The translations under genes were made by a program, and so were the position numbers. This document shows positions 22,951 to 52,952 of a stretch of DNA of 64,000 bases, in pieces (positions within the stretch are counted from its first letter, which is position 1; each line of letters opens with the position of its first letter). The stretch is taken from contig JAUPFV010000005.1 of NCBI GenBank assembly GCA_036936605.1, forward strand, positions 156,861,195-156,925,194, written 5' to 3'. The notes under the pieces were generated by a model. It had not been told where the DNA came from and searched no databases. It worked only from the letters and a program-made list of their open reading frames with translations. This DNA is from Limnanthes douglasii subsp. nivea (lineage: Eukaryota; Streptophyta; Magnoliopsida; Brassicales; Limnanthaceae).

Positions 22951-24001
22951 GGTTTGCAAATCTTATTCCAGGAGGTCCACTGGATAGATTTGTCATTGTA
23001 GTTGGACCTCCAAAGAAATCATTCAAAGCATAACTCTAGCTTGTTAATAATAGTGTTAGGAATAAGGCTATTGTGCATCCAATAGTAGATAATAGGGAGT
23101 AAAATTGAAGAGATAAGAGTCATTCTGCCTCCAAAAGATAGATGATTCATATCCCATTCAGTAATTTTATTGTGAATTTTCTCAAGTAAAGGAGTAAAGT
23201 TCTTCCATTTATTGTTGCCACATATAGTGATGCCCAGATAAGTGAAAGGAGGAGAGTCTACATTGAAACCAGTAAGCATTTTCAGTCTGGTAATCCTGGT
23301 TTGAGAAGCTTTGGTAGAGTTAATGATTTTTGTTTTCTCTTTGTTTATTGCTTGACCAGATACTGATTGGTATTATTCTAACAAATTGCACAACTTGTCA
23401 ATGGAGGATGGAAGGCTATTTGTGAAGATGAGGATGCCATCTGGAAAAGCCAGACTTGGCACTAGGTAATCTGCTTTAACATGAAACTTTAAACTGATAT
23501 TAGAGCTAAACATGTTGAAAAAGCCTCTTATTAGTACTTCCTCAGCAAGAATAAAAAGGCCAGGAGATAATGGATCTCCCTGCCTTAGGCCTTTCTAATG
23601 ATGGAAGTAGCCAATACTAGAGTCATTGATAAGAATGAAACCATAATATTAGTAATCTTTTTTTTTAATAAGACATATGAAATCATTAGAATACCCAAAA
23701 CAGTCAAGAACTTTAAAAATAAAAGCATGAGACATTCTGTCAAATACTTTAGACATGTCTAGTTGGATCATGATATTTCATTTTTTAGGTTTTCCAATTT
23801 ATGTTATGAATTAGTTCTTAGCAATTAAAATATTTTCATGAATAAGTCCGCTCTTCACAAAGGCTCCTTGAGTATTAGAAACTATGCTAGGGAGAGTAAT
23901 AGAAAGTATCTTATTCACTAAATTAGAAAGAAGTTTATTGAAGATAGAGCAAAGACTGATAGGTCTAAAGCTACTCCAACCAAAAGGGTTGGAACCTTTA
24001 G
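22951..24001 (-). pseudogene. LINE ORF2 reverse transcriptase, C-terminal part
   Basis: The frame restarts left of the Pack-MULE with SNPFGWSSFRPISLCSIFNK (24014-23811), then 'GLRQGDPLSPGLFILAEEVL' (about 23590) and 'LAFPDGILIFTN' (about 23450), where active elements have FADD. It continues with SPPFTYLGITICGNNKWKNF and 'WDMNHLSFGGRMTLISSILL' (23279-23019). The catalytic Asp pair is lost and there are frame changes. Confidence 0.85.
23992..24001. repeat. Target site duplication of the Pack-MULE, left
   Basis: gaacctttag, repeated exactly at 25404-25413 on the other side of the element. Confidence 0.9.
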
Positions 24002-24241
24002 GGGTAAAAAACACCAGTCATCCTCCACGTTTGCAGCTTGTAACAAGTTAGTCCCTGTCCTTTGAGGCCATAATAAAGGGGTCCTTATCGTTTTATTGGG
24101 TAGAATAAAACCATCCTTTTCGAGTCCAGCCCAACATTTGTCCCCGTAATACCCTTTGACCAGCCACATCAGCGATCCACGTAGGACGCTGATGTGGCAA
24201 CCCTAAAATTTAAACCCGGCCCAACAACCAATCCTAACCCA
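24002..24241 (+). repeat. Pack-MULE terminal inverted repeat, left
   Basis: Matches the reverse complement of 25164-25403 over its whole length. The copies hold an open frame (for example WLVKGYYGDKCWAGLEKDGF) that reads outward into the LINE; I regard it as incidental. Between this TIR and the gene fragment are short repeats of 'taacccaataacccagccc' (24235-24330). Confidence 0.9.
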
Positions 24242-24363
24242 ATAACCCAGCCCAATTTCTAACCTAATAACCAACCCTAACCCAATAACCCAGCCCAACC
24301 CTAACTAATAACCCGAAATCAAATCGAAACCCTAATTTTACTTGATTACCTTGATTTTGGATA

Positions 24364-25163
24364 GGTTTAAGACAAACAAGACCTAAGAGGAGAAGAAATA
24401 GGAAGTATCTGCAAATCCCAATCCCTCTCCACAAAAGGAAATCTTTTCACAAATTTCAAATAAATCTCATGATTACTCGCTGAACCCATCAACCACACTT
24501 TGTATTTGTAAACCTGTAACATTCTTGTCAACTGAGTCACGACATAACTCGCTAACAGACTCACTCCATCGTTTTCTTCAGTAACAAAAACCTTTAAATC
24601 TCCATAATTGATCACCAACCAAGGTATTGATTCCCGGTCTACAATCTTACCCAGTTCTTCGAATCTCGATTCGATCGATGCTTCATCGGAACTTTCCGAT
24701 ATATCGGTTTCAATGCTTTCGATGGTTAAACCGATCAAGTCTTTTGATAAAACACTAGCTTTTCGTTTCTCGATAAATCCCTTAAGTGAGTCGTAAGCCG
24801 ATACACCCATGAGCAGAGGATTTCTTCCTTTTTCTTTTTTTAAAACCTCTCCGATCCTACGGCTGTTTTTATCGCCGTGAAATACAGCCGCGAAAGTTGA
24901 AAACGAAAAGTTAAATCGACATGGATCCGAGCCCGGTTCGGGTAGGTTGCAGAGAAAGAGAGGTGGGTCTCTGTAACGGTTTATCTGATGGATCGGAAGT
25001 ATAACGGCGAGTTTGATCTCGGTGCTTCGAAAACCCGCTTCCCCGAAAACCCGACTCACAACCGGGTCATCGAGAATTGACAAAATTAGGTGCTGGAGTT
25101 CTACTTTAACGCACAAAACCGGATTCTGATTCGGGTTTGTGTGATGGTACAAATGGTAATTCT
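24364..25163 (-). pseudogene. Captured SMAX1-LIKE (D53-type) gene fragment
   Basis: An uninterrupted frame of about 262 codons. It reads VKVELQHLILSILDDPVVSR, then VFGEAGFRSTEIKLAVI, 'GEVLKKEKGRNPLLMGVSAY', and near the end KVWLMGSASNHEIYLKFVKR and 'FPFVERDWDLQILPI'. These are hallmarks of SMXL6/7/8-type proteins, ClpB-like repressors degraded in strigolactone signalling; the fragment covers the end of the double Clp-N region and part of the first ATPase-like region. There is no ATG at its start (the frame opens after a stop in the TIR), and it ends where captured sequence gives way to non-gene DNA. A capture, not a working SMXL gene. Confidence 0.9.
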
Positions 25164-25403
25164 TGGGTTAGGATTGGTTGTTGGGCCGGGTTTAAGTTTT
25201 AGGGTTGCCACATCAGCGTCCTACGTGGATCGCTGATGTGGCTGGTCAAAGGGTATTATGGGGACAAATGTTGGGCTGGACTCGAAAAGGATGGTTTTAT
25301 TCTACCCAATAAAACGATAAGGACCCCTTTATTACGGCCTCAAAGGACAGGGACTAACTTGTTACAAGCTGCAAACGTGGAGGATGACTGGTGTTTTTTA
25401 CCC
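25164..25403 (-). repeat. Pack-MULE terminal inverted repeat, right
   Basis: Inverted partner of 24002-24241; see that entry. Confidence 0.9.
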
Positions 25404-25413
25404 GAACCTTTAG
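25404..25413. repeat. Target site duplication of the Pack-MULE, right
   Basis: gaacctttag, identical to 23992-24001. Confidence 0.9.
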
Positions 25414-26272
25414 GGATAAGGCAAATCCGAGTAGAAAAAATCCCTTCAAGAATATTACTACCCTTTAGGTAAGAATTAAGAGCATTACAAAGGTCAGAAT
25501 GAATAATATCCCAGCAAGTTTTAAGGAATAGAGTATTAAACCCATCAATGCCAGCTGCACTATCATTATTCATGGAGCACACAATGCTCCAAACCTTTTC
25601 TTTGGTAGTTGGCTTGAGACGAGAGTGATTATCATTGTATGTTACAATCTTGGGAATGTTCATGAAAATGGGATCCTGCATTTCAAGATTTTGATCATCA
25701 TTGCTCATAAAAGAGTTAGTAGATAGAGCATTCTTCAAGAATTGTTTAGCAGACTTAGCTATATCTTCAGGACTCTGAATCCAGACACCTCCCTCTTTGA
25801 TACTCTTAATAAGATTTTTCCTTCTTTTCCTATAAACATAGTTATGATACAGCTTGGTATTACCATCACTTTCATTTAACCAAGTATTATAGCATTCTTT
25901 CCTCCAATAGCTTTCTTCATTTCTAAGAGCCTGAATATGCACACTGTTAGCTTTAGAAAGGTTGGATTTAGAAGAGTTGATGTTCTCAGTTAAATGAATA
26001 CACTTCATGTTGTTAACTTCCTTAGAAGCAACTTTAACTTTGTTGAAAATTTTCCAAAGTGCTTGCAGTTCCATTCTCTAAGGCACTTCTTTAATCGCTT
26101 TAGTTTATACCATAAAACGTTATTATGCTCACCCTTGCAACTTAGGCTCCAATTTTGCTTAACAATACTAAGGAAGTTGTTATCATTAGCCCAAGAATTC
26201 AAGAAATTAAACTACATTTATTATAGTTAGAAATCATGCTAGAATTGTTAGAAAACGTGATAAAAAATGGGG

Positions 26273-28229: not shown

Positions 28230-28518
28230 TGATGCAGACAGTTTAGCGCTGGAATTTATGAAGACTGGCGATCACCCGAAGAATGCGGTGAATTGACAGT
28301 TTGGAGCTCCGGTGTCTGATTTTGACCCACAGCACCTTGTTTCGAAGGAAACGACGCCACGAATGCAAGTCACCAGCTTCGCTCGTGACATATGGGCTTA
28401 TTTCAATTGAAACCTTATATAAACATATCTTCTTTACATTGTTTGGGTAGACTTTTTGATTAATTAAAATTAGGGTTTATCCCTCTATCTAGCTTCTTTT
28501 GCGTTCTACTCTGAATCT
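28230..28518 (+). repeat. Chromovirus 5' LTR (internally deleted)
   Basis: Starts TGATGCAGACAG and ends at ctctgaatct. Compared with the 3' LTR it lacks about 91 bp after 'cgtgacatatgg'. The remaining sequence differs at roughly 6% of positions by eye, so this is not a recent insertion. Confidence 0.88.
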
Positions 28519-28521
28519 GAT

Positions 28522-28537
28522 TGGTATCAGACACAGG
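28522..28537 (+). promoter_or_regulatory. Chromovirus primer binding site
   Basis: TGGTATCAGACACAGG, tRNA-Met-type, three bases after the LTR. Confidence 0.85.
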
Positions 28538-28549
28538 CAGTCCAGCGAG

Positions 28550-29590
28550 ATGGTGCGAGGAAGACCTAGAGGTCGCGGTGGCGCTGCGGTGGTTAGAGAT
28601 GCAGGTGATTTTGGAGATCGTGAAGATGCTGACCTACGCCGTCAGGTGGCTGATCTTACCCGTCAGATGGCTGATCTTAACGCCGGGAAACAAGGTATGG
28701 AGGTTGAAAGTATCGATAACCCTTTTGGGGAGGGGTTAGAACAGAATACTTATCACGGCCGTTGCTGGGAGCTTGGATTTAAGGTAGACATCCCTGAGTT
28801 TGATGGTAGCCTTAAGGCAGAGGCGTTTGTTGATTGGTTATCCCAGGTTGAGGAAGTGAAAGACTTCAAGGACGTTCCTGAAGAGAGAAGGGTCGTTTTG
28901 GTCACCATCCACCTGTGCGGCAGGGCACATGCCTGGTGGCAGCAAGTGAAGAAGACCCGTGAGCGTGAAGGCAAGGAGAAAGCCCGCAGTTGAGAGAAGT
29001 TCAGAAAAAAAATCCGCAAGGCTTTCCTACCTTACAACTTCGAGCGGGAACTATTCCAGGGATTCCAGAATCTTCGTCAATGACAACGATCTGTGGACGA
29101 GTATACAGAAGAATTCTATCAGCTGCTGGCTCGTATGGGTGTGAACAAATCGCTGCATCAGCGGTCATCCCGCTATATTGGTGGGTTGCGCATTCAGCTT
29201 CAACATGTGTTTAACATGTTCGACCCGGTGTCTGTTTCCGAAGCCCATCGGCGTACCCTCCAGGCAGAAAATCAGTTGGCTCGCCGTACCCAGATTGGCG
29301 TACGGACTGGTGCTCCTCCAGGGACTTCGGCACCCAAACCAGTTCCCCGTCCAACCCCTGATCATGTCCCTCCTGGGCGCGGTGCGACCAACAGCTCTTC
29401 AGGTAATTTACGTTGCTTTGGCTGTAGAGAGTTAGGACATCGTCAGGTAGAGTGTCCGAATGCTGGGGGTGCTAGGGGTCTTTTCTCTCATGAGGCGTTT
29501 GAACCGAACCCCATTGTTCTTGATGGTCCTCCGAAATTTGATACATATGATGATGATATTCCTGAGGTTGCGGAGGAAGTTGTGACTGGT
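28550..29590 (+). pseudogene. Chromovirus gag
   Basis: ATG at 28550 starts MVRGRPRGRGGAAVVRDAGD. The gag core reads 'DIPEFDGSLKAEAFVDWLSQ' and 'VDEYTEEFYQLLARMGVNKS', and a zinc knuckle CFGCRELGHRQVEC is near 29420. Stops: TGA at 28991 (Trp position) and TGA near 29086, plus a frame change between the first and second pieces. Apart from these it is well preserved. Confidence 0.9.
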
Positions 29591-32500
29591 GATGTTGGTG
29601 CAGTGTTGATGCTACGTCGCACTTTTCTGTCTCCTCGCGTTCCTGATCAGAGTGACTGGCTGTGGAATAATATGTTTCAGACGACTTGTACGATTGGCGG
29701 TAAGAAGTGCACCTTCATTATTGATGCTGGTAGCTGCGAGAATGTTCTCTCTGAGACAGCGGTTTCGAAGCTCGGGTTGAAATCAGAATCGCACCCCAAG
29801 CCATACAAGCTAGCCTGGCTGAGTAAAGGTACTAATATAACTGTGTCTAAACGTGTTCTTGTATCTTTTTCTGTGGGGCAGACATAGAAGGATGAGGTGT
29901 TTTGTGATATCGTCCCTATGGACGCTTGTCACATGTTGCTTGGCCGTCCTTGGCAGTATGATTTGTCTGTTGTGCATGATGGTCGTACAAATACTTATTC
30001 ATTCCTCTTTCGTGGTAAAACGATTGTTCTTGTGTCGGCAAAGACTCGGCCCCTACGCATTGGCTCTGGTCCTTCCACAACGACCTTGTTGTCCCGTGCT
30101 CCTTTTCAAGCAGCCGTGGAAGAGGCTGGTGTGGTTTTCTTTTTGTTTTGTGATCCTGTTGTGACTGATTATCATGCGGACCCTAGCCCGGTAATTCAGT
30201 CTCTTTTGCAGGAGTTTGCAGATGTGCTTCCTGAGAATTTTCCTCCCGACTTACCTTCTCTGAGGGATATTCAACATCAAATCGACCTGGATACTGGTGT
30301 TGCTCTCCCAAATCGGCCCCACTATCGAATGAGCCCAAAGGAGCATGAAGAATTACGACGACATGTGGAGGATTTGTTGGATAAGGGGCATGTTCAAGAA
30401 AGTCTCAGTCCATGTGCAGTTCTGGCGTTACTGACACCGAAGAAAGATGGTTCCTGACGTATGTGTGTGGACAGCCGAGCTATCAACAAGATCACTGTTC
30501 GCTACAGGTTTCCTATACCTCGTCTAGATGATCTGTTAGACCAATTGGGTGGTGCTTCTGTGTTCAGCAAGCTTGATTTGAAGAGTGGATACCATCAGAT
30601 TCGGATTCGTCCTGGTGATGAGTGGAATACGGCGTTTAAGACGCGTGAGGGATTGTTCGAGTGGCTGGTGATGCCGTTTGGTCTGTCCAATGCGCCGAGC
30701 ACTTTCATGCGTATCATGAATCAGGCATTGAGGCCTTTCATCGGTAAATTTGTTGTTGTTTAATTCGATGATATTCTGATCTATAGTGCTAACCATTCTG
30801 TGCATTTATCCCATTTACATGAGGTGTTATTGGTATTGTGTCGAGACAAGTTTTATGCTGCTACTGCCAAATGCTCGTTTATGTCCCCAGCTGTCCAATT
30901 TTTGGGGTATATTATCTCTGTCGAAGGGTTACGAGCTGATCCGAGCAAAGTCGCTGCTGTTGACCAGTGGCCTCGACCTACCTCCATCGCCGAGGTTCAC
31001 ATTTTTCATGGTTTAGCTTCGTTTTATCGGCGTTTCATTCCCCATTTCAGCAGTGTTATGGCCCCGATTACGGATTGCATGAAGGGAAAAAAATTTGGTT
31101 GGTCCGAAGATGCTGATGCGGCATTTGCAGAAGTTAAACGGCGTCTCACCACTGCGCCTATTCTGGTGCTGCCCGACTTTTCCCAGCCCTTTGAGCTTCA
31201 TTGTGACGCATCTAAATTTGGTAATGGGGCAGTTCTTTCCTAGTCAGGGCGTCCTGTGGCTTTCTTCAGTGAGAAATTGACGAGTGTTAAGCTGCGATTT
31301 AGTACATATGATATTGAATTTTATGCGGTGGTTCAGGCTATCAAGCATTGACGTCATTATTTGTTTCAGCGTGAATTTGTGTTATATATTGATAATGATT
31401 CTTTGAAGTATCTTGGCAGTCAGGACAGGTTATCTCATAGACATGGTTCTTGGATAGCTTACTTGCAGCAGTTCACTTTTGTCATCAAGCACAAGCCCGG
31501 TATTACGAATCGGGTTGGCTGATGGTCTGAGCCGTCGTCACAATCTGCTGACTGAGATGCGAGTTCAGGTTCCTGACTTTGATTCTTTTGTTGACCTTTA
31601 TGTTACTGACTCGTTCTTCTCTCGGGTCATTGAACTGATTCAGCAGGGAACACAATCTGATTTTTTAATGGAGGATGGATTTCTCTTTCGTGGAGTACAG
31701 TTGTGTATCCCTGATTGTAGCTTGCGTCTTCAGTTGACAAGGAGCTGCATAATGAGGGTCATGTGGCCGTGATCGAACATACCAGTTGCTGTCCTCATCC
31801 TATTTTGGTCTTCGATGCGGAAAGAAGTTGGTCGTTTTGTCTCCCATTGTCGAGTTTGTTAGTTGGCCAATGGAACATCAACAAATGCAGGTCTTTATTT
31901 GCCATTTCCGATTCCTGCTCAGCCCTGGACCGACATCAGTATGGATTTTGTTCTTAGTTTACCCGGGACTGGTTTCGACTCTATTTTTGTGGTGGTTGAT
32001 CATTTTTCTAAGATGGTACACTTCATCCCATGTAGAAAAACATCTGATGCAGTGTGTGTCGTGCAGCTTTTCTTTCGAGAGATTTACCGCATCCATGGCC
32101 TTCCCAGTACCATTGTTTATGACCGTGACACCAGGTTTGTGAGTCATTTTTGGCGCAGCTTATGGCGTATGGTGAATACACAGCTCAACTTCAGTAGTGC
32201 TTACCACTCCCAAACTGATGGTCAGACAGAGGTGGTTAACCGGTCCCTCGGTAACTTGTTGTGCAGCCTGGTGGGTGATCAGTCGAAGGCATGGGATCAA
32301 CGCCTACCGCAAGCGGAGTTCGCCCACAACCATGCCCTTAACCGGTCAACGGGTTTTTGTCCTTTCCAGGTGATGTATGGTATTGTGCCTCGGGATCCTG
32401 TGGACTTGCTAGTCCTGCCAACAAAATACGCCTTAACACAACTGCTGAGGAGCTTGTATCGCAGATTCGCCAAACCCACCAGATGACTTACGATCAGCTT

Positions 32501-32887
32501 GTCTTGAGCACCGCCAAGTATAAGTCTCAGGCGGATTCTCATCGTCGTCCTGTTCAGTTCGAAGTTGGTGACTATGTGTGGGCAGTTTTAACCAAAAATC
32601 GGTACTATGCTAGTGAGTACAACAAACTGGCCGCCCGGAAGATTGGTCCGGTGGAGATTGTGGAGCGGATCAATCCGAATGCTTATCGACTGTGTTTGCC
32701 TAGCCATGTCCGTACGTCTGATGTCTTTAATGTTAATCATCTGATTTCTTATGCAGGTGACTCTTCTGACGAGGAGACTGGTTCTGATTCGAGGGCGAAT
32801 CTTCTCTACCCCGGCGGGAATGATGTAGACAGTTTAGCGCTGGAATTTATGAAGACTCGCGATCATCCGAAGAATGCGGTGAATTGA
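29591..32887 (+). pseudogene. Chromovirus pol: protease, RT, RNase H, integrase
   Basis: Protease 'CTFIIDAGSCENVLSETAV' (29709 on; Ala in place of the usual Ser/Thr of DSG). RT '[20 protein letters not shown]' (30461) and [20 protein letters not shown]. The catalytic box reads 'FVVV*FDDILIYS', with a stop replacing Tyr before the DD. RNase H has 'FELHCDASKFGNGAVLS'. Integrase core 'WTDISMDFVLSLPGTGFDSI', 'YDRDTRFVSHFWRSLW', 'DGQTEVVNRSLGNLL'. Stops near 29885, 30454, 30760, 31241 and 31348, and a frameshift in the HHCC zinc region near 31760-31860. The frame runs into the 3' LTR, as is common in this group. Confidence 0.92.
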
Positions 32888-40459: not shown

Positions 40460-42811
40460 CTACTCCAAGTACATTCGGAGATGTTCGATATTCCAAGGGT
40501 GGGTCAAAACTCTTCCATCCTTATCTTCTAGCCAATATGTTCCAGGTTTAAACCTTTCAACAACCATATAAGGTCCTTCCCAAGTCGGGGCCAATTTGCC
40601 GAGCAGCTTCTCTTTAGTGTGTAAGAAGACTTTCCTCAATACCTTGTCCCCCGGATGGAAATCTCTTCCTTTAACTTTAGAAGCAAATCTGCTTCTCATC
40701 AAACCCTGATAGTGTGCAGCTCTAAGGTGAGCTTTAACTCGTCTTTCTTCTACTAGATCGAGCTGACCTCTAATTGCCACTTCGTTAGCGCATTCAGAGA
40801 AGTTGTGAACACGAAATGATGGGAGAGTTTCTTCTATGGGAGCTATTGAATCCATCCCATAAACCAAGGCAAAGGGTGACTCCTGTGATACAGCCCCAAG
40901 TGTCGTCCGGTAGGCCCACAAGACCTCTTGTAAATAGCTAGGCCACTTCCCAACAGCCCCTTCCAGATTCTTCTTTAAACCGGACAGTATAGTTCTGTTA
41001 GCCACTTCAACCTGACCATTTTCTTGTGGGTGGAAACGTGAAGAGAAACAATGTTGTATACCCCTTGAGGCACATAAACTCTCCATTTCCCTATTGTCAA
41101 ACTGTGGCCCATTATTTGTCGTTATCTTTTGTGGAACACCAAATCTGCAACAAATGTTGGATAAAATGAATTTTATAACGGCTTTTGATGTTGTTCCTTC
41201 CAGAGGGGATGCTTCAATCCATTTTGAAAAGTAATCGAATGCAACAATTATAGTTTTGCGCCCTCCGGACGCCATAGGGAGAGGCCCCACTAAATCCAAC
41301 CCCCATCGAGCAAAAGGTATAGGCTCAGAAATTGACTCTAAAGGAATGGCTGGGACATGAATTTCATTGTTGTATCTCTGGCATGGGTCACACCTTCTTA
41401 CCAGCTCTTTAGCATCCTGCATGATAGATGGCCTATAGTAGCCAGCCAGTAAAACTCTCCTTGTTAGAGCCCTGAATCCACAATGAGCTGATCCCTCGCC
41501 ATCATGCAATTCGGAGAGGACTACTTGAGACTCATCATCCTCCAAACAGCGCAGAAGAGGTTTATTGTAGGACTTTTTATATAGAATGTCTCTTGGTATG
41601 AAAAAACCACGAGCCTTGTGTTTCAGTTTCCTTGCCAGTGATTTATCTGGAGGCACAATACCATCGAAGAGGTATTGCAGGAGAGGAAATCTCCAATCCG
41701 GAGGTTGTTTCACCTGTACTTCAAACATTTCTTCTTTTTTATCCATATTAAGTTGAATGGAGGGGCTCTCCAGCATATAAATCCATGGATATGACTCTCT
41801 GTACGCTATGGTTGCCAATGAATCTGCCAACTCATTTTCGGTCCGGGGTATATATTCATAAATAATGCTTTTAAACTTGAGTGCTTTATTTTTAAGAAGA
41901 AGTAAATACTTCACTAGATGCTCCTTTTTAGCCTCAGATTGACCTTGGGCATGGTGGATAAGAAGCTGGGAGTCACTCAATAGCTTGACCCTCTTAGCCC
42001 CACAAATAAAAGCTAACTTCAAACAAGCTATAGCTGCCTCATATTCGGACTCATTATTGGAAGCCCTGAAAGCAAAACATATAGCTTGGTACATTTTGTC
42101 ACCATATGGAGAAGTCAAGCACACCCCTGCACCACATCCCATAGTGCTGGATCCACCATCCGTCCGGACGACCCAGACCTTTTTATCTTTCAACTCAGTA
42201 GTGTGCTCCGAATCTCTATCAGAGTGGAATTCAACTAAAAAATCAGCTATAGCTTGGGCTCTGACTGATGTTCGGGGAGCAAAATCTATATCGAAATCCC
42301 CCAATTCTAGCGACCACTTAGTCATCATACTTGAAATGTCTACCTTTTGGAGAACATTCTTCAAAGGAAAAGATGTTCGGACGATAATAGGATGACCCTG
42401 GAAATAAGGCCTCATCTTTCTTGCAGCTATCACCAGGGCTAATGCTAATTTTTCAAGTTTCAAATAACGCCTTTCTGCATCTATCAAGCTTTTGCTGATG
42501 TAGTACACTGGATGGGGGTAATTATCCACTTCTCTCACTAACACAGCACTGATGGCACAACTTGAAACTGCCAAATATACGAAGATTGTCTCTCCATCAA
42601 CTGGTTTAAATAAGGTTTTGGGAGAGGACAAATGCTTCATGATTTCATTGAAAGCCTCATCACACTGTGAGGTCCAGTCAAATCCTTTCGCACCCTTCAA
42701 GGTTTGAAAAAACGGGGCGCATCTGTCCGAAGACCTTGAGATAAATCTGTTTAAAGCAGCTAGCCTCCCTGTTAATCGTTGTACTTCTTTAATATTCCGA
42801 GGAGGCTCCAT
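40460..42811 (-). pseudogene. Element A pol: RNase H, aRH, integrase (no RT)
   Basis: One open frame of 783 codons, starting at the first in-frame ATG. RNase H part VYYISKSLIDAERRYLKLEK. aRH part begins VVRTDGGSSTMGCGAGVCLT and has 'ASNNESEYEAAIACLKLAF' and 'LLSDSQLLIHHAQGQSE', the second RNase H of the Tat lineage. Integrase zinc part ends CDPCQRYNNE; core RWGLDLVGPLPMASGGRKT, 'ITTNNGPQFDNREMESL' (second catalytic Asp replaced by Asn; B has TDNG) and 'HPQENGQVEVANRT'; C-terminal 'WEGPYMVVERFKPGTYWLED'. Upstream, the gag leader is fused in frame by a deletion that removed gag, protease and RT. Called a pseudogene because RT is missing and the integrase Asp is lost. Confidence 0.9.
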
Positions 42812-42890
42812 TTGAAATAGAGCATTAAGCTGGTCCGGATCGGGTGACTCTTCTGGTTGGTTTCGAATGCTTGATTCAGGAACCTTCGTG

Positions 42891-42908
42891 CTCCTACTGT
42901 GGTCGCCA
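42891..42908 (-). promoter_or_regulatory. Element A primer binding site
   Basis: Minus strand TGGCGACCACAGTAGGAG, one base different from B and D. Confidence 0.85.
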
Positions 42909-42911
42909 ATT

Positions 42912-43028
42912 TGGTGTGGTTAATTTTGGTCTGAGGGTAATTTTGTAATTTGTTTAGAGTTTGTAAAGGTTGGTGTGTGTTTAATGTTTTGAGTAGAGAG
43001 TAGAGGGAGAATTAAGCAGCCTGGTTTT
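42912..43028 (-). repeat. Element A 5' LTR, PBS-side piece
   Basis: Plus strand starts TGGTGTGGTTAATTTTGG and runs to the insertion point of B. Its last five bases gtttt (43024-43028) pair with gttgt at 53433-53437 as the target duplication of B, with one change. Confidence 0.88.
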
Positions 43029-43435
43029 TGGTGTGGTTAATTTTTGTCTAAGGGTAATTTAGTAATTTGTTTTAGAGTTTGTGAAGGTTGGTATGTGTTT
43101 AATGTTTTGAGTAGAGAGTAGAGGGAGAATTAAGCAGCCTGGTTGCAGTTAATTATCATTACCCATATTTAATGCAGGTGGTTGGGTATTTATACCCTTA
43201 CATCTCGGCTTTATGGGTTTTCGGGTCATGTTTAATGGACCCGGGTCATGTTTAAAGACCCATGAGCTCTTAGTAGGGGAGCAAGCAGCTTAGTCAAGAA
43301 GTGTTTATGTTTTTTAGTACTTTTGTCATAGTTCGAACAGTCCAATGGGCTAACTGTTCGAAGTGGCCTGTCCGGTCTGGTGGCCTTGGTCCGATCTGTC
43401 CCTGTCCGGAGAGGAAGTAGTATTCGGACTCATCA
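43029..43435 (-). repeat. Element B 3' LTR
   Basis: Plus strand TGGTGTGG...GACTCATCA, 407 bp. It contains a tandem pair of 'cgggtcatgtttaa' and a TATA-like 'gggtataaatacccaacc' on the minus strand near 43190. Confidence 0.92.
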
Positions 43436-43449
43436 GGAGCCCCTCTTTT
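43436..43449 (-). promoter_or_regulatory. Element B polypurine tract
   Basis: Minus strand aaaagaggggctcc beside the 3' LTR. Confidence 0.85.
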
Positions 43450-43601
43450 AGGTGTTTGTTCAAATGCCTTTGTCAAAAACCTGAAAAAACAGTCTGATAT
43501 CAGGGGTAGCTTTTCCCGGATAGGTCTTTCGACTTGTGCTATGGTTTTATCCGGACTGGAAAACTCTGTGAATCCAAACAGTTTTTCGCCAGAGTTTATG
43601 G

Positions 43602-43611
43602 GACACGTGTC
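43602..43611 (+). promoter_or_regulatory. G-box palindrome upstream of element B extra gene
   Basis: GACACGTGTC, 263 bp before the ATG at 43875; see 36727-36736. Confidence 0.6.
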
Positions 43612-43874
43612 ACTTTCTGGTTGGTCGTTTCAGCCGTTTTTTCACCTTGAATTTCGCACCCACCTTCTTCGAAAAGCAACCTCTTCATTAAAGAGGGTGA
43701 CATCAGTGCCGTCTTTTAATCATTACCAATCTTTTCGAATTCTCCTAAGAATCAAACTCCTTTTTCAGATTTACTATAAATTGAAATACTTTCTACTGTT
43801 TCACCACTCTCATTTTTACTCTGCAAATTCTCAAAGCTTTTTCTCTCTAAAACAAATTTTTACCCAGTTTGTTT

Positions 43875-46832
43875 ATGTTCACGGCTCGGAACGCTTTGAT
43901 CAAAGGCGGGTGGCTCAACCTCTCTAAACTAGAAAAGGCGCAAAAGGTTGAAAGGGAAAGGCGCATTGCAGCAGGCTTACCCACCTCCCCCATTGACAAA
44001 CCAGTGACTGCAGCCACAGAGTCAGACCAAAGTTCTTCTTCTTCAAAAGGCATCAAACCGAAAAGCTTATTTCAAACCAATCTCTCACCCATTATCTCAG
44101 GTTCTTCAGTTCAAGAATCGGAACCTATTGTTGAGCCAGGTATAACTGTTACCAGCTTTAAAAAACCCTCCCCCTTCTTAGCTATGGGGTCAGATGCTGA
44201 AAACTCTCCTAAAAAATTAGTTGACCGAAGAAAAGGCCGGCTGGTCAAGGGTCAAGCTTCTAAGGGCACCCCTTCAAAATCGGGGGCCAAAGACAGCAGT
44301 GCGGGGTCAGAAGTGCCCATCAGAGCTCCCAAGGACAGGCTGTCCGGTCCAGAGGGCACTAGTTCAAGTCCCCGGAAGGAAACATCTGCTCCAGAGCCCC
44401 AACCGGAGGCCAGGAACCAAGAAAACACTGAAACTCAGCAGTCCGGAAGCCAGGCTAAGCCAAATCTAAACCTTCCCCTTACCACTGCTACTGAAAACCC
44501 CTCATCAATCATGGAGGAAGTAATGGAGGACTCTATCGAAGAGGCTCCATTCGAGTCTGAGCCTTCCGGACAGACTAGTAGTGCTGTTGCTGCCAAAAAA
44601 GATAAAGGCAAGGAAAAGTTGTGCTTGAGGCATCCAGATCCGCCAGAGTGTCTTGAAGGAAGGGTGGGGCCTTGTTTTCACAAGGTCAGTGTCAAGTACC
44701 TCCTTGCCCTGTAAAAGATCAACTACGCATTTATCCACACAGCTGAGATGGGCCGGATGCGTACGAAGTGGGGAATTCTATAGAACGTGAAGATAAGAAT
44801 CCATATAAACCCTGAAACTCCCGTGGACTGCAAATTGAGCGAGATAGTCATCTTCACAAAGCTGTTTAATTGGGGGCTCAGATTCCCCTTGGACCCATAA
44901 ATTGTCAGATACTTTCATCTGATAAAGCTCTGTCCGAGCCAGCTGAGCCCCAATGCTTGGTACACCCTCATGGCCTGCATTATGGCTTCTAGGCTCTCCG
45001 GGATTCCTCTACCAATGGAGGAGTTTGCTGTTGTGGCCAGTCTCTGCAGACACCACCACATCCCTTTCTACCATTTTAATATGGGGGATAACTTCAAAGC
45101 TGTGGATAACTTGCTAGAGTCGAAGAGGAATTGGAGGACCCAATTCCTGTTTGTAAGTGGTTCTTGGGAGAATGGGAAGAAAATCAAGTCCGGAGTCAAC
45201 CCAAGTCTTCTCACAAGCAGATGGAGGAGTGACCGTAAGTCTCCTACTTTACATTCTTGTTTTTTTTAATCAAGTTTGTTTAAACTAATTGGTCTTATCT
45301 TTGCCTTAGCAGAACTGCCCAAGGACTTCAGTGACTACTTGAAAACCGGGCAGACCACTTGCACCAAGATCAACGTTTGGGCTGCTGAGAAGTGGGGGAA
45401 CCGGTTCCATGCTGCTTTCATAGGGGGCAACTTAGCAAGGTCTCATCTTTGGAACACCACAGGTCAGAGAGACTTAACTTGGGAAGAGCTCACTACCCAG
45501 CCTCCTCCGGATGTAGGGCTTAAAAGGACGTACGAACCGGATGGGACACTTTCCTTGCCAGGCCGGGCCAAGGCCCCGAGTAAGATGAAAGGCAAAAAGA
45601 AGGGCAAGAAAGTTGTGGGTGGAGCTAACCCTGCTGAGGTGGAGGAGGATGTTCGAACGCATCCGGAGGGGTCAGCCCCCAGCCAAATTCATACTACTCT
45701 CTTGGAAGCGGTAGAGCAGGAGAGTGTTAGGCAAGAGGTTCACTCCCCAAATCTTCCAAGGGCTTCCAAAAGAGACCGCAAACGGGGAGTTGTAAGCAAA
45801 GACAGGGAGGCCAAGAAGAAAAAGACCTCTAAGTGTGACGAACTTTCTCTCCGACCTCCGGAGCCTCTCCCCCAAGCTGACCCTACTGACCCAACACAAG
45901 CAGAGGAGATACCTGGTGACTTCCAAACCGATGAGGTCGAACGGGGAGGTCTTAGCATTGATGGGGTAGACATCACTGGTCTTGGTGGGCTTGGTGAGTA
46001 CTTTATCAATCTCCCCAGAGATGATTTTGCTGGGCCTTATCTCCCTCCGAGCACTTCAAACACAGTCACTTTTAATGGTAAGACCTTTACTATTTCAAGT
46101 GAAAGGGATGTTATTGCCCACTCTTTATTAATCAATGTTCAGCCGTCGCTTGCTTTGGAGAAGAAAGTTCGAAGTCAGGCCGACATTATCAAAGACCTCA
46201 AGTCTGATAAGGAGAGGCTGTCCGATGACCTTCTCACTGCCACTCAACATGCTAATATTTTAAAGGGGGAGAACGAGGAGCTGAAAAAGAATCAGGAGGG
46301 GTGGACCACCAAAGTTGCTACTCTGGAAGACATCATCAAGGATCTCCGGGAGAAGTTGTCTGGACTTGAGAAAGACCTCAAGTCTTCAAAAGAGGAGACC
46401 AAGGCCAAAGATCAAGTTATCCACAACTTGACCAGTGACACGATTGCTCTTGAAAACGCAGTGTCCCAAGCTGCAGGGGAGAAAGCTGATCTGCTAAGGG
46501 AGCATGAGGCCAAAATCCAGGCCAAAATCGATGCTTATGCCAACAACGTGATAGACACCCAAGAGCAAATGTATGCCAAGGTGAGATCGGACATGGTCCT
46601 GCTCTTTCATGAGAAGTTCCCACAGAGGAACCTGGGGGATTTATGGCTCCACGTAGAGCCTAAAGACCTCCCATATCACACAATGGCAATAGGCGACAGG
46701 TATGGCTTCTCCAGTGCATCCTCTTCTGATGACGAAGAGAACACCGGGGAGAGCCCACACGAAGAGAAAGATGCTCCCAAGGGGAAGAAGAAGATAGATG
46801 AAGTTGAGCCATCTTCAAACGCTCAGCCTTAA
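43875..46832 (+). pseudogene. Element B extra (antisense) gene, two exons
   Basis: Exon 1 (43875-45234) starts MFTARNALIKGGWLNLSKLE and is open for about 280 codons, then has stops near 44712, 44780 and 44898 where A has Gln, Glu and Glu codons. The later part again has 'YTLMACIMASRLSGIPLPME'. Exon 2 (45310-46832) is fully open: basic clusters, the conserved 'LSIDGVDITGLGGLGEYFIN', a coiled coil (about 46140-46610), and an acidic, Ser-rich end. A and B encode very similar exon 2 proteins, colinear throughout. Convergent with pol. Function unknown; see the A entry. Confidence 0.8.
45235..45309 (+). other. Likely intron in the element B extra gene
   Basis: The donor C|GTAAGT follows TSRWRSD. 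The acceptor is GCCTTAG at 45309, or CAG at 45312. Same place as in A. Confidence 0.7.
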
Positions 46833-47324
46833 ATTATGAATTACTTTTTACTTTTCATGTTATCTAAACTAAAGTCCTTGGAAGGCCAAGGCACTCTTTT
46901 TGTAAGTGTGTGTGGTATCTTACCGGATTGATCTTTTACTCCGTTTGACAATTTGAAAGTCCTTGGAAGGCCAAGGCACTTAAGTTATTTCAATGAATAT
47001 CCTTGTTTTTCACAATTCTCACATTCTTTCATAGTCTGTTTCAATTTTGGTGGCTAGTGTTTAAATAGCCCTTAGTTATTTCATAGTGAGAGTGTTTAAA
47101 TTCTCCGATGACAAATGTTTAAGTGGTCATCACTCTTTTATTTCAATCCGAATGGTCTGACAAAAGAAAAAGTAAGAACACTTCAGAAATTTTTTTAAGA
47201 AGGCGTCAATCTTCATTTAAAACCCGGACACCTCATTTAAACCTCCCCGCGCCACCAGGGTAGGAAAGAGTATACCCCCAAATATTTACATGGATGTTTA
47301 AACAAGTAAATATTTACACAAATG
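46833..47324. other. Convergent spacer of B with two palindromic repeats
   Basis: Holds 'agtccttggaaggccaagg' followed by cact twice (about 46871 and 46959), as in A; otherwise non-coding. Confidence 0.7.
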
Positions 47325-49099
47325 CTACTCCAAGTACATCCAGAGATGTTCGATATTCCAAGGGTGGGTCAGAACTCTTCCATCCTTGTCTTCTAGCCAA
47401 TATGTTCCAGGTTTAAGCCTTTCAACAACCATATAAGGTCTTTCCCAAGTCGGGGCCAATTTGCCGAGCACCTTCTCTTTAGTGTGTGGGAAGACTTTCC
47501 TCAATACCTTGTCCTCCGGCTGGAAATCTCTTCTTTTAACTCTAGAAGAAAATCTGCTTCTCATCAAACCGTGATAGTGTGCAGCTCTAAGGTGAGCTTT
47601 AACTCGTCTTTCTTCTACTAGGTCGAGCTGACTTCTGATTGCCACTTTGTTAGCGCATTTGGAGAAGTTGTGAGCACGAAATGATGGGAGAGTTGCTTCT
47701 ATGGGAGCTATTGCATCCATCCCATAGACCAAAGCAAAGGGTGACTCCTGTGTTGCAGCCCCAGGTGTTGTCCGGTAGGCCCACAAAACTTCTTGTAAAT
47801 AGCTAGGCCACTTCCCAGCAGCCCCTTCCAAATTCTTCTTTAAACCGGACAATATAGTTCTGTTAGCCACTTCAACCTGACCATTTGCTTTTGGGTGGAA
47901 AGGTGAAGAGAAACAATGTTGTATACCCCTTGAGGCACAGAAACTCTCCATTTTCCTATTGTCGAACTGTGGCCCATTATCTGTCGTTATCTTTTGTGGA
48001 ACACCAAATCTGCAACAAATGTTGGATAAAATGAATTTTATAACGGCTTTTGATGTTGTTCCTGCCAGATGGGCTCCTTCAATCCACTTCGAAAAGTAAT
48101 CGATTGTAACAATTATAGTTTTGCGCCCTCCGGACGCCATAGGTCGAGGCCCCACTAAATCCAACCCCCATCGAGCAAAATGTCTAGCCTCGGAAATTGA
48201 CTCTAAAGGAATGGCTGGAACATGAATTTCATTGTTGTATCTCTGGCATGGGTCACACCTTCTTACCAGCTCTTTAGCATCCTGCATGATAGATGGCCAA
48301 TAGTAGCCAGGCAGTAAAACTCTCCTTCTTAAAGCCCTGAATCCACAATGAGTTGATCCCTCGGCATCATGCAATTCGGAGAGGACTACTTGAGATTTAT
48401 CATCCCCCAAACAGCGCAGAAGAGGTTTACTGTAGGACTTTTTATACAGAATGTCTCTCAGTATGATAAAACCACGAGCCTTGTGTTTCAGTTTTCTTGC
48501 CAGTGATTTATCCGGAGGCACGATGCCGTCTGAGAGGTATTGCAGGAGAGGAAATCTCCAATCCTGAGGTTGTTTCACTTGTAATTCAAAAATTTCTTCT
48601 TCTTTACCCATATTAAGTTGAATGGAGGGGCTCTTCAGCACATGGATCCATGGATACGACTCTGTGTATGCTATGGTTGCTAATGAATCTGCTAACTCAT
48701 TTTCTGTCCGGGGTATATGTTCATAAATAATGCTTTTAAACTTGAGTGCTTCATTTTTAAGAAGAAGTAAATACTTCACTAGCTGCTCCTTTTTAGCCTC
48801 GGATTGACCTTGGGCATGGTGGATAAGAAGCTGGGAGTCACTCAATATCTTGACCCTCTTGGCCCCACAAATAAAAGCTAACTTCAAACCGGCTATAGCT
48901 GCCTCGTACTCAGACTCATTATTGGAAGCGCTGAAAGCAAAACATATAGCCTGGTACATTTTGTCACCATATGGAGAAGTCAAACACACCCCTGCACCAC
49001 ATCCCATAATGCTCGATCCACCATCCGTCCGGACGACCCAGATCTTTTTATCTTTCATCTCAATAGTCTGCTCCGAATCTCTATCAGAGTGGAATTCGA
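47325..49099 (-). pseudogene. Element B pol: aRH and integrase
   Basis: Open for 577 codons. aRH: 'WVVRTDGGSSIMGCGAGVC', 'SASNNESEYEAAIAGLKLAF'. Integrase: zinc part to CDPCQRYNNE, core 'WGLDLVGPRPMASGGRKTI', 'ITTDNGPQFDNRKMESF' with the catalytic Asp intact, 'HPKANGQVEVANRT'. A one-base loss near 49105 (five A against six in A) separates it from the RNase H part. This piece keeps the integrase catalytic residues I can see. Confidence 0.88.
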
Positions 49100-50475
49100 C
49101 TAAAAATCAGCCACAGCTTGGGCTTTGACTGCTTTTCGGGGAGCAAAATCTATATCGAAATCCCCCAATTCTACCGACCATTTAGTCATCCTACTTGAAA
49201 TCTGTGCCTTTTGGAGAACATTCTTCAAAGGAAAATATGTTCGAACGATAATATGATGAGCCTGGAAATAAGGCCTCATCTTTCTTGCAGCTATCACCAG
49301 GGCCAATGCTAATTTTTCAAGTTTCAAATAGCGCCTTTCTGCATGTATCAAGCTTTTGCTGATGTAGTACACTGGATGGGGGTAATTATCTACTTCTCTC
49401 ACTAACACAGCACCGATGGCACAACTTGAAATTGCCAAATATACGAAGAGTGTCTCTCCATCAACTGGTTTAAATAAGGTTTTGGGAGAGGACAGATGCT
49501 TCTTCATTTCATTGAAAGCCTCATCACACTGTGAGGTCCAGTCAAATCCCTTCGCACCCTTCAAGGTTTGAAAAAACGGGGCGCATCTGTCCGAAGACCT
49601 TTAGATAAATCTGTTTAAAGCAGCTAACCTCCCCGTTAAACGTTGTACTTCTTTAATATTTCGAGGAGGCTCCATTTGAAATAGAGCATTAAGCTGGTCC
49701 GGATCGAGCTGTATCCCTTGCTCACTTATTATATAACCTAGGAACTTCCCGGATTGTACTCCGAACACACATTTTTCTGGATTTAACTTCAAATTCACCT
49801 TTACCAAGTTGGTAAAAGTTTCTTGGAGGTCTGTCAAGTGCAATTACTCATCCACACTTTTCACCATCATGTCATCGATGTATACTTCCATATTCCTTCC
49901 AATCTGATCAGCAAAGGCTTTGTTCACCAATCTCTGATAAGTATCCCCAGTATTTTTCAACCCAAACGGCATTACTTTGTAGCAATGAAGACCCATGTCA
50001 GTGATAAATGTGGTATGCTCCTGATCCTTCGGATTTACTTGGATCTGATTGTATCCGGAGAAAGCATCCATAAAGGATAGCAGTTTATTCCCAGAGGTGG
50101 AGTCTACTAGCTGGTCCATCCGGGGAACTAGATACAAATATTTTGGGGAATCTCTATTGAGGTCTGTGAAGTCAATGCACATGCGCCTCTTGCCATTTTT
50201 CTTTTTCACCAAGACCGGATTGGTAGTCCACAAAGGATATTGAGATTCCTTAATATGCCTTATCTTTGTGAGCCTGTCAACTTCTTGCACAATAACATCA
50301 GCCTTTTCCTTGGAAAAAGCCCTTCTCTTTTGAACCACTGGTGCTATGTCCTTCCGGACAGATAGGTGATGTGATATCACCTCTGCTGGAACCCCGGTAA
50401 CGTCAGCACTGCACCAGGCAAAAACATGCTGATAGCTTTTCAAAAAAATTAGCATCTCTCTTTTTCAGATCGGGT
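49100..50475 (-). pseudogene. Element B pol: RT and RNase H
   Basis: RT 50455-49844: HVFAWCSADVTGVPAEVISH, 'VLVKKKNGKRRMCIDFTDLN', KVMPFGLKNTGDTYQRLVNK, catalytic 'MEVYIDDMMVKSVDE', then a stop at 49841. 'KLNPEKCVFGVQSGKFLGYI' follows (thumb and connection), a TAG near 49604, and RNase H 'VYYISKSLIHAERRYLKLEK' (49564-49100). The RT frame is +1 relative to the protease frame upstream, at the same spot as in D. Confidence 0.88.
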
Positions 50476-51311
50476 GGCATTCTGGACCCTAACTTGACAC
50501 TCTTCCCTTCTTCTAAACAATGTGTTTCTACCTCTTCGACTGGTATTAATACTCCAGGGGTCTCTATGGGGTCATCTATTTCACCCTCACCCCCAGAAAG
50601 CCCCTCAAATTGCTATTGCTTGTTGATACGAACTGCCCCCAACGTCCAGGGCGCCAGGGCTGTAGCATAGCATTCCCTTGCAACCTTTTGACTGCTTCGG
50701 ACAACTTCCACATGTCCTTGAACAGCATATTTCAAACATTGGTGGACTGTTGAAGCCACTGCATGCATCCTAGAGAGCCAAGACCTCTCTAGAATAGCAT
50801 TATAATAAGTGGGACAATCTACCACAATAAAAAGTATCCTGACCATCTTCTTGAAAGGGCCCTTGCCTAACAAAACTTCCTCTTCGAACTCCCCGATCAC
50901 ATCTGCTGAGGTGCCAGTAAAGCCCACAATTGATCTGTCCGAACTCTGAATTACGGCTGGATTTTTCATTTTCTTGTAAGTGGTTAAGAAAAGGATATTG
51001 GCTGAGCTTCCAGTATCCACCAAGATTCGTCTTATGTCATTGCCCCCAATATATGCTCCTATGACAACAGAATCTTCATGAGGGCCAGCTATATCTCTTA
51101 AGTCATCTTCATCAAAAACAATGAAGGGGAGCGGAATTTGCGATTGATAGGAGGTCATGCCTCCTTCTAGCTGGGTGGCTAAAGTATGAACGTGCCTCTT
51201 CCTCGAAGAAGCAGTAGGAGCTGTCATAGTATCTCCTCCGAAAATTGTAAGTGACTCAAAAAAATTGATGAGCCCGGAGACCGTTCTAGAACATTCCTCA
51301 ATTGCACCCAC
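50476..51311 (-). pseudogene. Element B protease and linker
   Basis: The protease frame 51311-50613 has 'HEDSVVIGAYIGGNDIRRIL' and VDTGSSANILF, and 'YNAILERSWLSRMHAV'. It ends at TAG (50615-50613) followed by CAATTT. The sequence after the TAG still encodes, in the same frame, the conserved acidic linker (GEIDDPIETPGVLIPVEEVE) that joins protease to RT, so the stop lies within otherwise coding sequence. Confidence 0.85.
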
Positions 51312-51317
51312 TCTATT

Positions 51318-52952
51318 TCAAGTTGGGTCAGGATCCAAGTATTCAGATTCCACATCAAACCTTTCGATTATAACCATGGCACCCTCCGGAGCAGCATTAC
51401 TTGGACCAACCCGGTGAGTATTGTCAGGTCTGTTACCTCCTCTTCTTTTGATATAAGCCCCCAGCTTTCCCCTTTCAATCAAGTTCTGAACTTCTTGTTT
51501 CAAAGCTATACAATCATCGGTGGTATGGCCAGTATCATTGTGATACTGGCAGAAAGATTATTGCGATGTTCTCTAAGAGATTACAGTGTGGCCGGTCTTC
51601 TATAGTGCACCTCTTCCTTTGTTTTATCATAAATGATGGCCACACTTTCTTTCAATTCTGCAAACCACTCCGGTTGAACCCAAGGCCCTCTCTTATTTCT
51701 GGATTGCTGACTCTGAGCAGGTGCAGCTGGCTGAGATTGAGCTTTAGCCCTGCCATGCCCCTGTCCGGTCTCCTTTGCCTTGTTCCCGAACTGATTCTGA
51801 TTAGGGTTTGGTGCCACCGGGGTTGATCTCCCTGCCTGTGCACCCTGGTCTTCTTTGTTTCATCAACGTTAATCTGCTTTCCAACCTGATTCAGAAACCC
51901 TCCCCAAGTCATGGCTTTCTTTCTGGTCACTGAATCAACCAAATTGCCAGGGTTTAAGCCCTGTCTCAAAGATGCTATTGCAACTTGCTCGAAACAATCA
52001 GCCAACCCATTCTTGGTGTTCACAAAACGACTTATGTAGTCTTTCAATGATTCGTTCGGTTCTTGGGCAAAATGGATTATTGTGTCCCCGTTTCCCTTTA
52101 ATTCTTTACTCCCAACGAACTGCCTTCGAAAGGCCACCCAAAAAGTATCGAAATTCTTGATACAGCCTTGTGGTAGGCTGTTATACCATTTTAGAGCACT
52201 CCCTGTAAACGATTAGGAGAATGCTCTACAAATTAGCTTGTCATCATCATCAAAGTTCATCATAAAGTTTTTAAATTGCTCCAAATGGTTGTCCGGATCA
52301 GTACTGCCATCGTACTTTTCCATTTTGGTGCTATCAAACCTCTTAGGGAGGTTTTCGGACAGAATTTTGGAAGACAATGGAGATTGCCTCTAATTTCGGC
52401 CACGACTGAACACAGTATCTTCATTGGGAGTTGCAAAAATACCTGGTTCATCGTGGAAAGCGAAGGGATCCATCAGCATCCAGTCTACATGCCTCCGGCT
52501 GTGAGATGACCCTTTGCCAATATTCTTCTTCAACTTTCCATGTCTATCTCTTTTCCTTGAATATTTTTTTATCAGATTTTTCTTCTTTTTAGTTCGACCT
52601 CATCGCTGCTAGAGGATAAGGATTCTTCAACTCCCTCGTCATCCGAAGAGCTATCAGAAGACTCTAAGCCTGAGTCAGAACTCTCCACTGGCTTAGACCG
52701 GTGAGACTTTTTGGAGCTGGCATGAGTCTTTTTTGTACTCACATGAGTCCTTGAAGGCTCATGCTCTCTGGGGTTATCGGTGTGATGAGCAACTGACGCT
52801 TTAGATTTTTCTTTCATGCCCATCTTAGCCTTTTCTGCCCTCAGAGCTTCTATCTCGCCTTTTAGCCTATCACGCTCCTCGATAGTGTATTCATCGTTTT
52901 CACCCACCACTTCGAGAAAAGCTGGTGGCACTTCCGGGGCGTCCGGATTCAT
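51318..52952 (-). pseudogene. Element B gag
   Basis: ATG at 52952 starts MNPDAPEVPPAFLEVVGEND. The N-terminal part is charged and Ser-rich (to 52572). The gag core 'MEKYDGSTDPDNHLEQFKNF' and 'LPQGCIKNFDTFWVAFRRQF' lies in pieces around 52340-51652, and the C-terminal 'MKQEVQNLIERGKLGAYIKR' is at 51503-51318. Stops near 52570, 52395 and 52215, and a frame change near 51830, disrupt it. It ends at a TGA (51317) just before the protease frame. Confidence 0.85.

Follow-up and report, generated by a model that had tools for sequence, protein, structure and literature searches.

Structure of the element and its insertion site

An element of 1,402 bp spans positions 24002-25403 of the window, the 64,000-nucleotide stretch of Limnanthes douglasii subsp. 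nivea DNA analysed here. Its two terminal inverted repeats (TIRs), each 244 nt long, differ from one another by 4 mismatches, and the whole is enclosed by a perfect target-site duplication (TSD; Table 1). These measurements agree with an earlier sequence-only reading of the locus, which had described a 1.4-kb element with near-identical TIRs of ~240 bp and a perfect 10-bp duplication. Beyond the left TIR, subterminal sequence common to other members of the same TIR family gives way to a stretch of gene sequence on the minus strand (24344-25169, 826 bp), which consists of the end of an exon and part of the adjoining intron and whose final ~10 bp, where the two meet, lie within the right TIR. 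The frame of this gene fragment is the longest inside the element; it was also the sole internal frame scanned with Pfam, where it gave no match to a transposase.

Table 1. Features of the element in the window, its immediate flanks and the sister elements carrying a response-regulator cargo
Feature	Position or locus	Strand	Basis or remark
Left TSD, GAACCTTTAG	23992-24001	n/a	Perfect 10/10 match to right TSD
Right TSD, GAACCTTTAG	25404-25413	n/a	Perfect 10/10 match to left TSD
Left TIR, 244 nt, starting GGGTAAAAAACACC	24002-24245	+	Inverted-repeat comparison
Right TIR, 244 nt	25160-25403	-	Inverted-repeat comparison
Subterminal sequence common to other TIR-family members	24246-24343	+	Up to element position 341/342
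Start of parental intron 1 behind the splice donor, 6 nt (GTAATC, minus strand)	24344-24349	-	Comparison with parent
Captured exon-1 end of SMXL6/7/8-type gene	24350-25169	-	Parent L009:4255-5080
Premature stop, TAA where parent has GAA	24367-24369	-	Comparison with parent
Reverse-transcriptase-like frame, one flank	23811-23991	-	RVT_1 E 0.0032, below curated cut-off
Reverse-transcriptase-like frame, other flank	25414-26077	-	No Pfam match on this side alone
Response-regulator elements	L062, L069, L071, L075, L077, L078, L079, L080		Same TIR family as the window element

The element interrupts a reverse-transcriptase-like frame, which is read here as a probable LINE. When the element and one TSD are deleted in silico, the two flanks merge into a single frame of 284 aa, as expected of an insertion, although the match of this joined frame to RVT_1 is weak (E 0.016, below cut-off). 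A separate frame at 23376-23594 aligns with a later part of the same profile (E 0.011, likewise below cut-off). The surroundings of the element are interpreted as dense in transposable elements (TEs); long polyprotein frames at 28493-32887 and 40460-52212 of the window are taken to be LTR retrotransposons, and two of these nearly repeat one another.

The captured fragment and its parent gene

The minus-strand frame in the element is open for 266 codons. It starts after a TIR-side stop, and its initial ATG lies at about residue 119. SUPPRESSOR OF MAX2 1 (9kkx, E 1.1e-16) was the sole PDB sequence matched at E <= 1, and of the 551 candidates in a protein search, 65 plant Clp-R/SMAX1-LIKE proteins reached E <= 0.001, with 55% identity for the best match. 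Pfam matches to the frame were all below curated cut-offs (NBD_SMAX1, E 0.0012; DHFR_1, 0.046; Clp_N, 0.26). The sequence-only reading had placed about 790 bp of SMXL6/7/8-like coding sequence, free of any stop, at 24364-25163. The long open frame was correctly recognized, but the true extent is somewhat greater, and the captured stretch does hold a stop codon, at which the frame ends (Table 1).

A DNA search with the element (40 of 1,509 candidates scored) across the 1.78 Gb genome, assembled in 633 contigs of which five measure 293-405 Mb, identified one locus, L009, that matches element positions 343-1168 only. Fragment and parent are 97.3% identical over 826 bp, intron part included, and no TIR match was found across the 9.9 kb of L009. 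Exon 1 of this gene lies within an open frame of 393 codons, and a further frame (L009:2544-3647; AAA_2, E 2e-12) holds the stretches VGPDRSGKK, VRGKT and LDLNLP, in which the first is presumably P-loop-like, RGKT the degron and LDLNL the EAR motif. A protein search with parent exon 1 yielded 15 rows, comprising the parent itself at 100%, nine rows within the six copies of the element described below, a 52% paralogue and four more sequences at 35-45%; L009 is the best genome match, and the next paralogue is only 52% identical. Among the 120 listed of 742 relatives, those with names include SMAX1-LIKE 6, 7 and 8. These 120 proteins are 876-1,160 aa in length, and the joined, hand-made parent model (L009:2544-5438) comes to 789 aa, so that it would be either shortened or imperfectly modelled.

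Genes of the SMXL6/7/8 type act as a brake on the strigolactone hormone response, and the parent looks like one of them. What was captured is the counterpart of the exon-1 end in these D53-type repressors. In contrast to them, the element has a fragment only, which lacks a start codon, the later exons and the RGKT and LDLNL motifs. The proposal that the locus is a Pack-MULE with a captured SMXL6/7/8-type fragment nevertheless stands, as a gene matching the fragment is present in the genome, together with five further copies of the element.

Copies of the element and its TIR family

The same DNA search revealed at least six full copies, that in the window included. The other five share 96.6-97.6% identity with the window copy (97-98% in the search itself), and each of the six is bordered by its own perfect TSD of 9-10 bp (gaacctttag, gtcttaggct, tctccttta, gacataaca, aactgatgaa and ggattctta). 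Both capture junctions are identical in all six copies. Because of these shared junctions, the copies are the product of one capture event, after which the hybrid moved as a unit. Two of them, c112 and c441b, retain the parental base at element position 453 and have common states at 246, 384, 591 and 1336 that set them against the other four where those agree. However, positions 696 and 1161 group c1 with c441b and position 297 groups the window copy with c441b, and a c112/c441b subgroup is thus only tentative. In the stretch L003:1501-4402, a copy is situated upstream of a frame for a SYF1-type splicing factor (E 5e-62), at ~0.9 kb, and a SERF-like frame (1e-8) lies at ~0.3 kb from it. A further copy, at L005, is ~0.5 kb from ligand-gated channel frames (2e-17 and 7e-5, the latter below cut-off).

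The TIRs are far from confined to these copies. With <=3 mismatches, a 46-mer taken from the end of the TIR has 236 matches in forward and 233 in reverse orientation, compared to 0 + 0 for the control; the 469 matches would correspond to a family of about 235 elements if all ends were paired. TSDs were tallied at 13 other family members, a count that excludes L027 with its single TIR in the fetched stretch: ten are perfect at 9-10 bp, two have one mismatch and one measures about 7 bp. One member, L053, contains 7.0 kb between TIRs of the same family, with matches to DBD_Tnp_Mut (PF03108, E 1e-10) and SWIM (PF04434, 2e-5) that both exceed the cut-off. With these MuDR-type pieces, L053 is a possible candidate for the source of transposase.

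Other cargoes were surveyed by blastn in 32 members or part-members fetched besides the six SMXL copies, which were drawn from the top of match lists and do not form a random sample. Pieces of an LRR receptor-kinase gene of at least 40 nt are present in 18 of the 32, often as remnants beside other cargo, and their likely source is a frame of 505 aa at L055:3849-5363 that has no TIR match. A full L7/L12 piece, a response regulator and a proline-rich piece (for instance in L060; the name is our own, as the Pfam match is below cut-off) occur in three fetched members each. Eleven of the 32 have no match to any of these four cargoes, and three of the eleven (L027, L053 and L054) carry transposase-like sequence. 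Several fetched members are chimeric in cargo. Six elements carry another cargo, that of the L016 group, which recurs at C1:72389686 (L056; 99%), a place that has no TIR match and is likely to be its source. Family cargo is also present in L015.

Capture junctions and the route of acquisition

Members of the TIR family are alike in their left end up to about element position 341 and in their right TIR, and they differ in their interiors. On the minus strand, the SMXL fragment continues past the exon-1 end and includes 6 nt of intron 1, CAAG being followed across the splice site by GTAATC. As the splice donor and these 6 nt are retained, the source was either DNA or unspliced RNA. At the right junction the parent reads AATTCTCGGGTTG, the family TTATTGGGTTAGG and the element AATTCTTGGGTTAGG, with 1 bp matching at the switch and GGGTT alongside. 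At the left junction, where the family reads TTTTACTCC, the parent CAAGATTACC and the element TTTTACTTGATTACC, nothing clearly matches, and one base may be filler. Short matches of this kind are compatible with the gap-filling model outlined for animal Pack-TIRs (PMC8277862).

The element is very probably a non-autonomous Mutator-like element, or Pack-MULE, with the following history. The interior of one TIR-family member would have been replaced, once, by sequence of an SMXL6/7/8-type gene extending from the end of exon 1 to the sixth nucleotide of intron 1, most likely through gap repair within the element and template switching at short matches. MuDR-type transposase supplied by autonomous relatives would then have acted on the TIRs and carried the hybrid to at least six places, among them the LINE-like sequence in this window. 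Since then the fragment appears to have evolved without detectable coding constraint.

A different course of capture is conceivable, in which two MULE ends came to flank the exon and the whole stretch moved as one element, a route put forward for Pack-TYPE elements generally, as outlined in PMC8903248. It would be in keeping with the left piece (to position 341) and the right TIR (244 nt), which are unequal in length and directly abut gene sequence. The parent locus, though, shows no remnant of a TIR at present, and this route is considered unlikely. Retroposition of the SMXL fragment itself is not favoured, as the fragment keeps the splice donor with its 6 intron nucleotides and has neither an A-tract nor a repeated site at its ends.

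Fate of the captured fragment

Interior replacement followed by spread leaves the question of what became of the captured coding sequence. The comparison of identity and dN/dS that the sequence-only reading had suggested shows that, beside the 97.3% identity to the parent, the distinct coding changes within the copies amount to 31 nonsynonymous and 6 synonymous, where neutrality predicts 78% nonsynonymous (p 0.55). Between the parent and the copies' common state there are 3 nonsynonymous and 6 synonymous changes (p 0.005). Ka/Ks (NG86) is 0.19-0.45 from copy to parent, whereas copy-to-copy values range from 0.49 to 4.9 around 1, with few changes and one value undefined. Because the latter scatter around 1, the low copy-to-parent ratios are read as constraint on the parent side. 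The captured frame contains four stops in total, three in c223b and one in the window copy, and 1-bp deletions in c223a and c441b; in c1 and c112 it has neither stop nor frameshift. The changes among the copies fit neutral drift, and the fragment seems to be in neutral decay. The window copy has 12 coding changes, 10 nonsynonymous and 2 synonymous, of which one synonymous change is shared with three copies. These counts are not taken as a sign of positive selection on the window copy, because all copies together show a ratio no different from the neutral one.

The few TIR mismatches had been taken as a sign of recent movement. This reasoning is not valid for a DNA transposon, and the likeness of the TIRs was discarded as a clock in favour of the changes private to each copy. 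Counted over the element with gapped columns left out, these number 18 in the window copy, 9 in c223a, 11 in c1, 20 in c223b, 9 in c112 and 16 in c441b, which places the window copy second among the six, so that it does not stand out as young. Plant substitution rates are 0.7-1.3e-8 per site and year, at which the window copy would, as a rough estimate, be about 1-2 million years old.

Could the copies act on their parent? In the window copy, 444 of 806 windows of 21 nt are identical to the parent, and in the other five 466-552 of 805-806, or 55-69% across all six. At the sequence level, an antisense or small-RNA effect is therefore possible: promoters in the TIRs would drive antisense or hairpin RNA, from which 21-24-nt RNAs against the SMXL mRNA would be made. 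TIR promoters are said to drive Pack-MULE interiors (PMC3310237), and the neutral coding ratio is no argument against a role at the RNA level. Nonetheless, the window copy is embedded in LINE-like sequence within a stretch read as TE-dense, and such an effect is regarded as improbable. More doubtful by far is the idea that the fragment yields a shortened SMXL protein, lacking the degron region, which interferes with strigolactone signalling. While 266 codons are open in the window copy and the captured frames of c1 and c112 are intact, the first ATG lies well inside a frame that opens after a TIR-side stop, two of the six copies have frameshifts, one has three stops and the window copy one, and the 31:6 ratio among copies is that of drift. 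On these grounds (stops, frameshifts, neutral ratio and want of a start) a protein role of the fragment was rejected. That the structure is no transposon at all, and arose by chance or by segmental inverted duplication, can be practically dismissed given the distinct TSDs at all six copies and a genome-wide set of 469 TIR ends against none in the control.

A probably retroposed cargo in sister elements

Decay after a single capture of genomic or unspliced sequence describes the SMXL cargo; another cargo of the same family bears different marks. The frame in L069 matches Response_reg (E 3.5e-18) and is read as a type-A response regulator. A protein search with this frame found eight elements, each with both TIRs (Table 1), and one multi-exon gene, L083. 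The cargo is continuous in the elements, and it lacks the four coding introns of the parent L083, which have GT..AG ends and measure 81, 86, 89 and 78 bp. The 5' leader has likewise lost an intron, about 105 bp long, the AG acceptor of which could not be placed. At the 3' end, where the parent reads GCTTGTTAATTAAGTT, six of the eight elements (L062, L071, L075, L077, L078 and L080) have GCTTGT(T) followed by 8-11 A, broken by a T in L077; the other two lack this 3' end. The A-tract is short, as two A are present in the parent and up to three are perhaps part of the repeat that follows.

This repeat belongs to the element. In L062, L071, L075, L077 and L078 the A-tract leads into AAATCGAAACCCTCATTT, with a single variable base in L062 and L075. 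These 18 bases, which belong to the subterminal sequence at the left end of the family itself, are also found directly before the insert. Four of the eight elements (L062, L071, L075 and L077) keep the flanking repeat, 15-18 bp in length, on both sides, and the left one is degraded in L078. Each of the six SMXL copies has one copy of the 18-mer. With two mismatches allowed, a set of 25 further members without SMXL comprises 18 that show no more than one copy on either strand and four that show none. The remaining three, L028, L064 and L066, are devoid of response-regulator cargo and possess a second copy, altered in sequence, at a distance of 84 bp. These exceptions weaken the repeat as a unique mark of retroposition; the two 18-mer copies within them differ, and no A-tract insert lies between.

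Together, the loss of introns, the A-tract and the duplicated MULE stretch point to an mRNA copy that was retroposed into a MULE and then multiplied by it. Processed retrogenes are made by the LINE machinery. The response-regulator cargo is alike to them in intron loss, A-tract and flanking duplication of 15-18 bp, and it differs in having, by this reading, a MULE as its target and as the vehicle of its later multiplication. L069 keeps a full frame of 189 codons, but with N in place of D in the stretch ITDYCMPGM, where D is presumably the phosphate-accepting residue. The same replacement and a 1-bp insertion are found in L079, stops occur in L062, L071, L075 and L077, and L078 has a stop and insertions; L080 was left out of the alignment. 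For the L7/L12 cargo, no A-tract or duplication was apparent by eye. It is quite likely, then, that one MULE lineage obtained cargo by two routes, namely replacement of its interior by an intron-bearing gene (SMXL) and retroposition of a host mRNA (the response regulator). If true, DNA transposons would have a way of gaining cargo in which the gene is provided by LINE-type machinery and its spread by the MULE.

Relation to known Pack-MULEs

The window element resembles Pack-MULEs described from rice, tomato and other plants in its long TIRs, a TSD within 9-11 bp, a size of about 1-1.4 kb, and a host-gene fragment whose parent lies elsewhere and which exists in several copies with distinct TSDs (accounts in PMC3310237 and PMC8277862), as well as in having no transposase inside (as stated in PMC4858842). 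It differs from them in its cargo, SMXL, and none of the papers searched joins Pack-MULEs with SMXL or with strigolactone. The SMXL-bearing Pack-MULE is thus a further case of a known kind, for which one genome supplies unusually complete evidence, from the parent gene and the acceptor family to both junctions, six copies and a candidate source of transposase. The way in which Pack-MULEs come by unlinked genes is described as perplexing or open in PMC8277862 and PMC13317346. A family with several cargoes, one of them apparently retroposed, makes this question testable. Among the titles and abstract openings listed on Pack-MULEs with retroposition, retrogenes or processed pseudogenes, none describes a retrocopy inserted into a MULE, which is not to claim its absence from print, and the apparently retroposed cargo of the sister elements is the more novel observation of the two. 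Both the SMXL and the type-A response-regulator cargo look like hormone-response genes, which may perhaps be coincidence.
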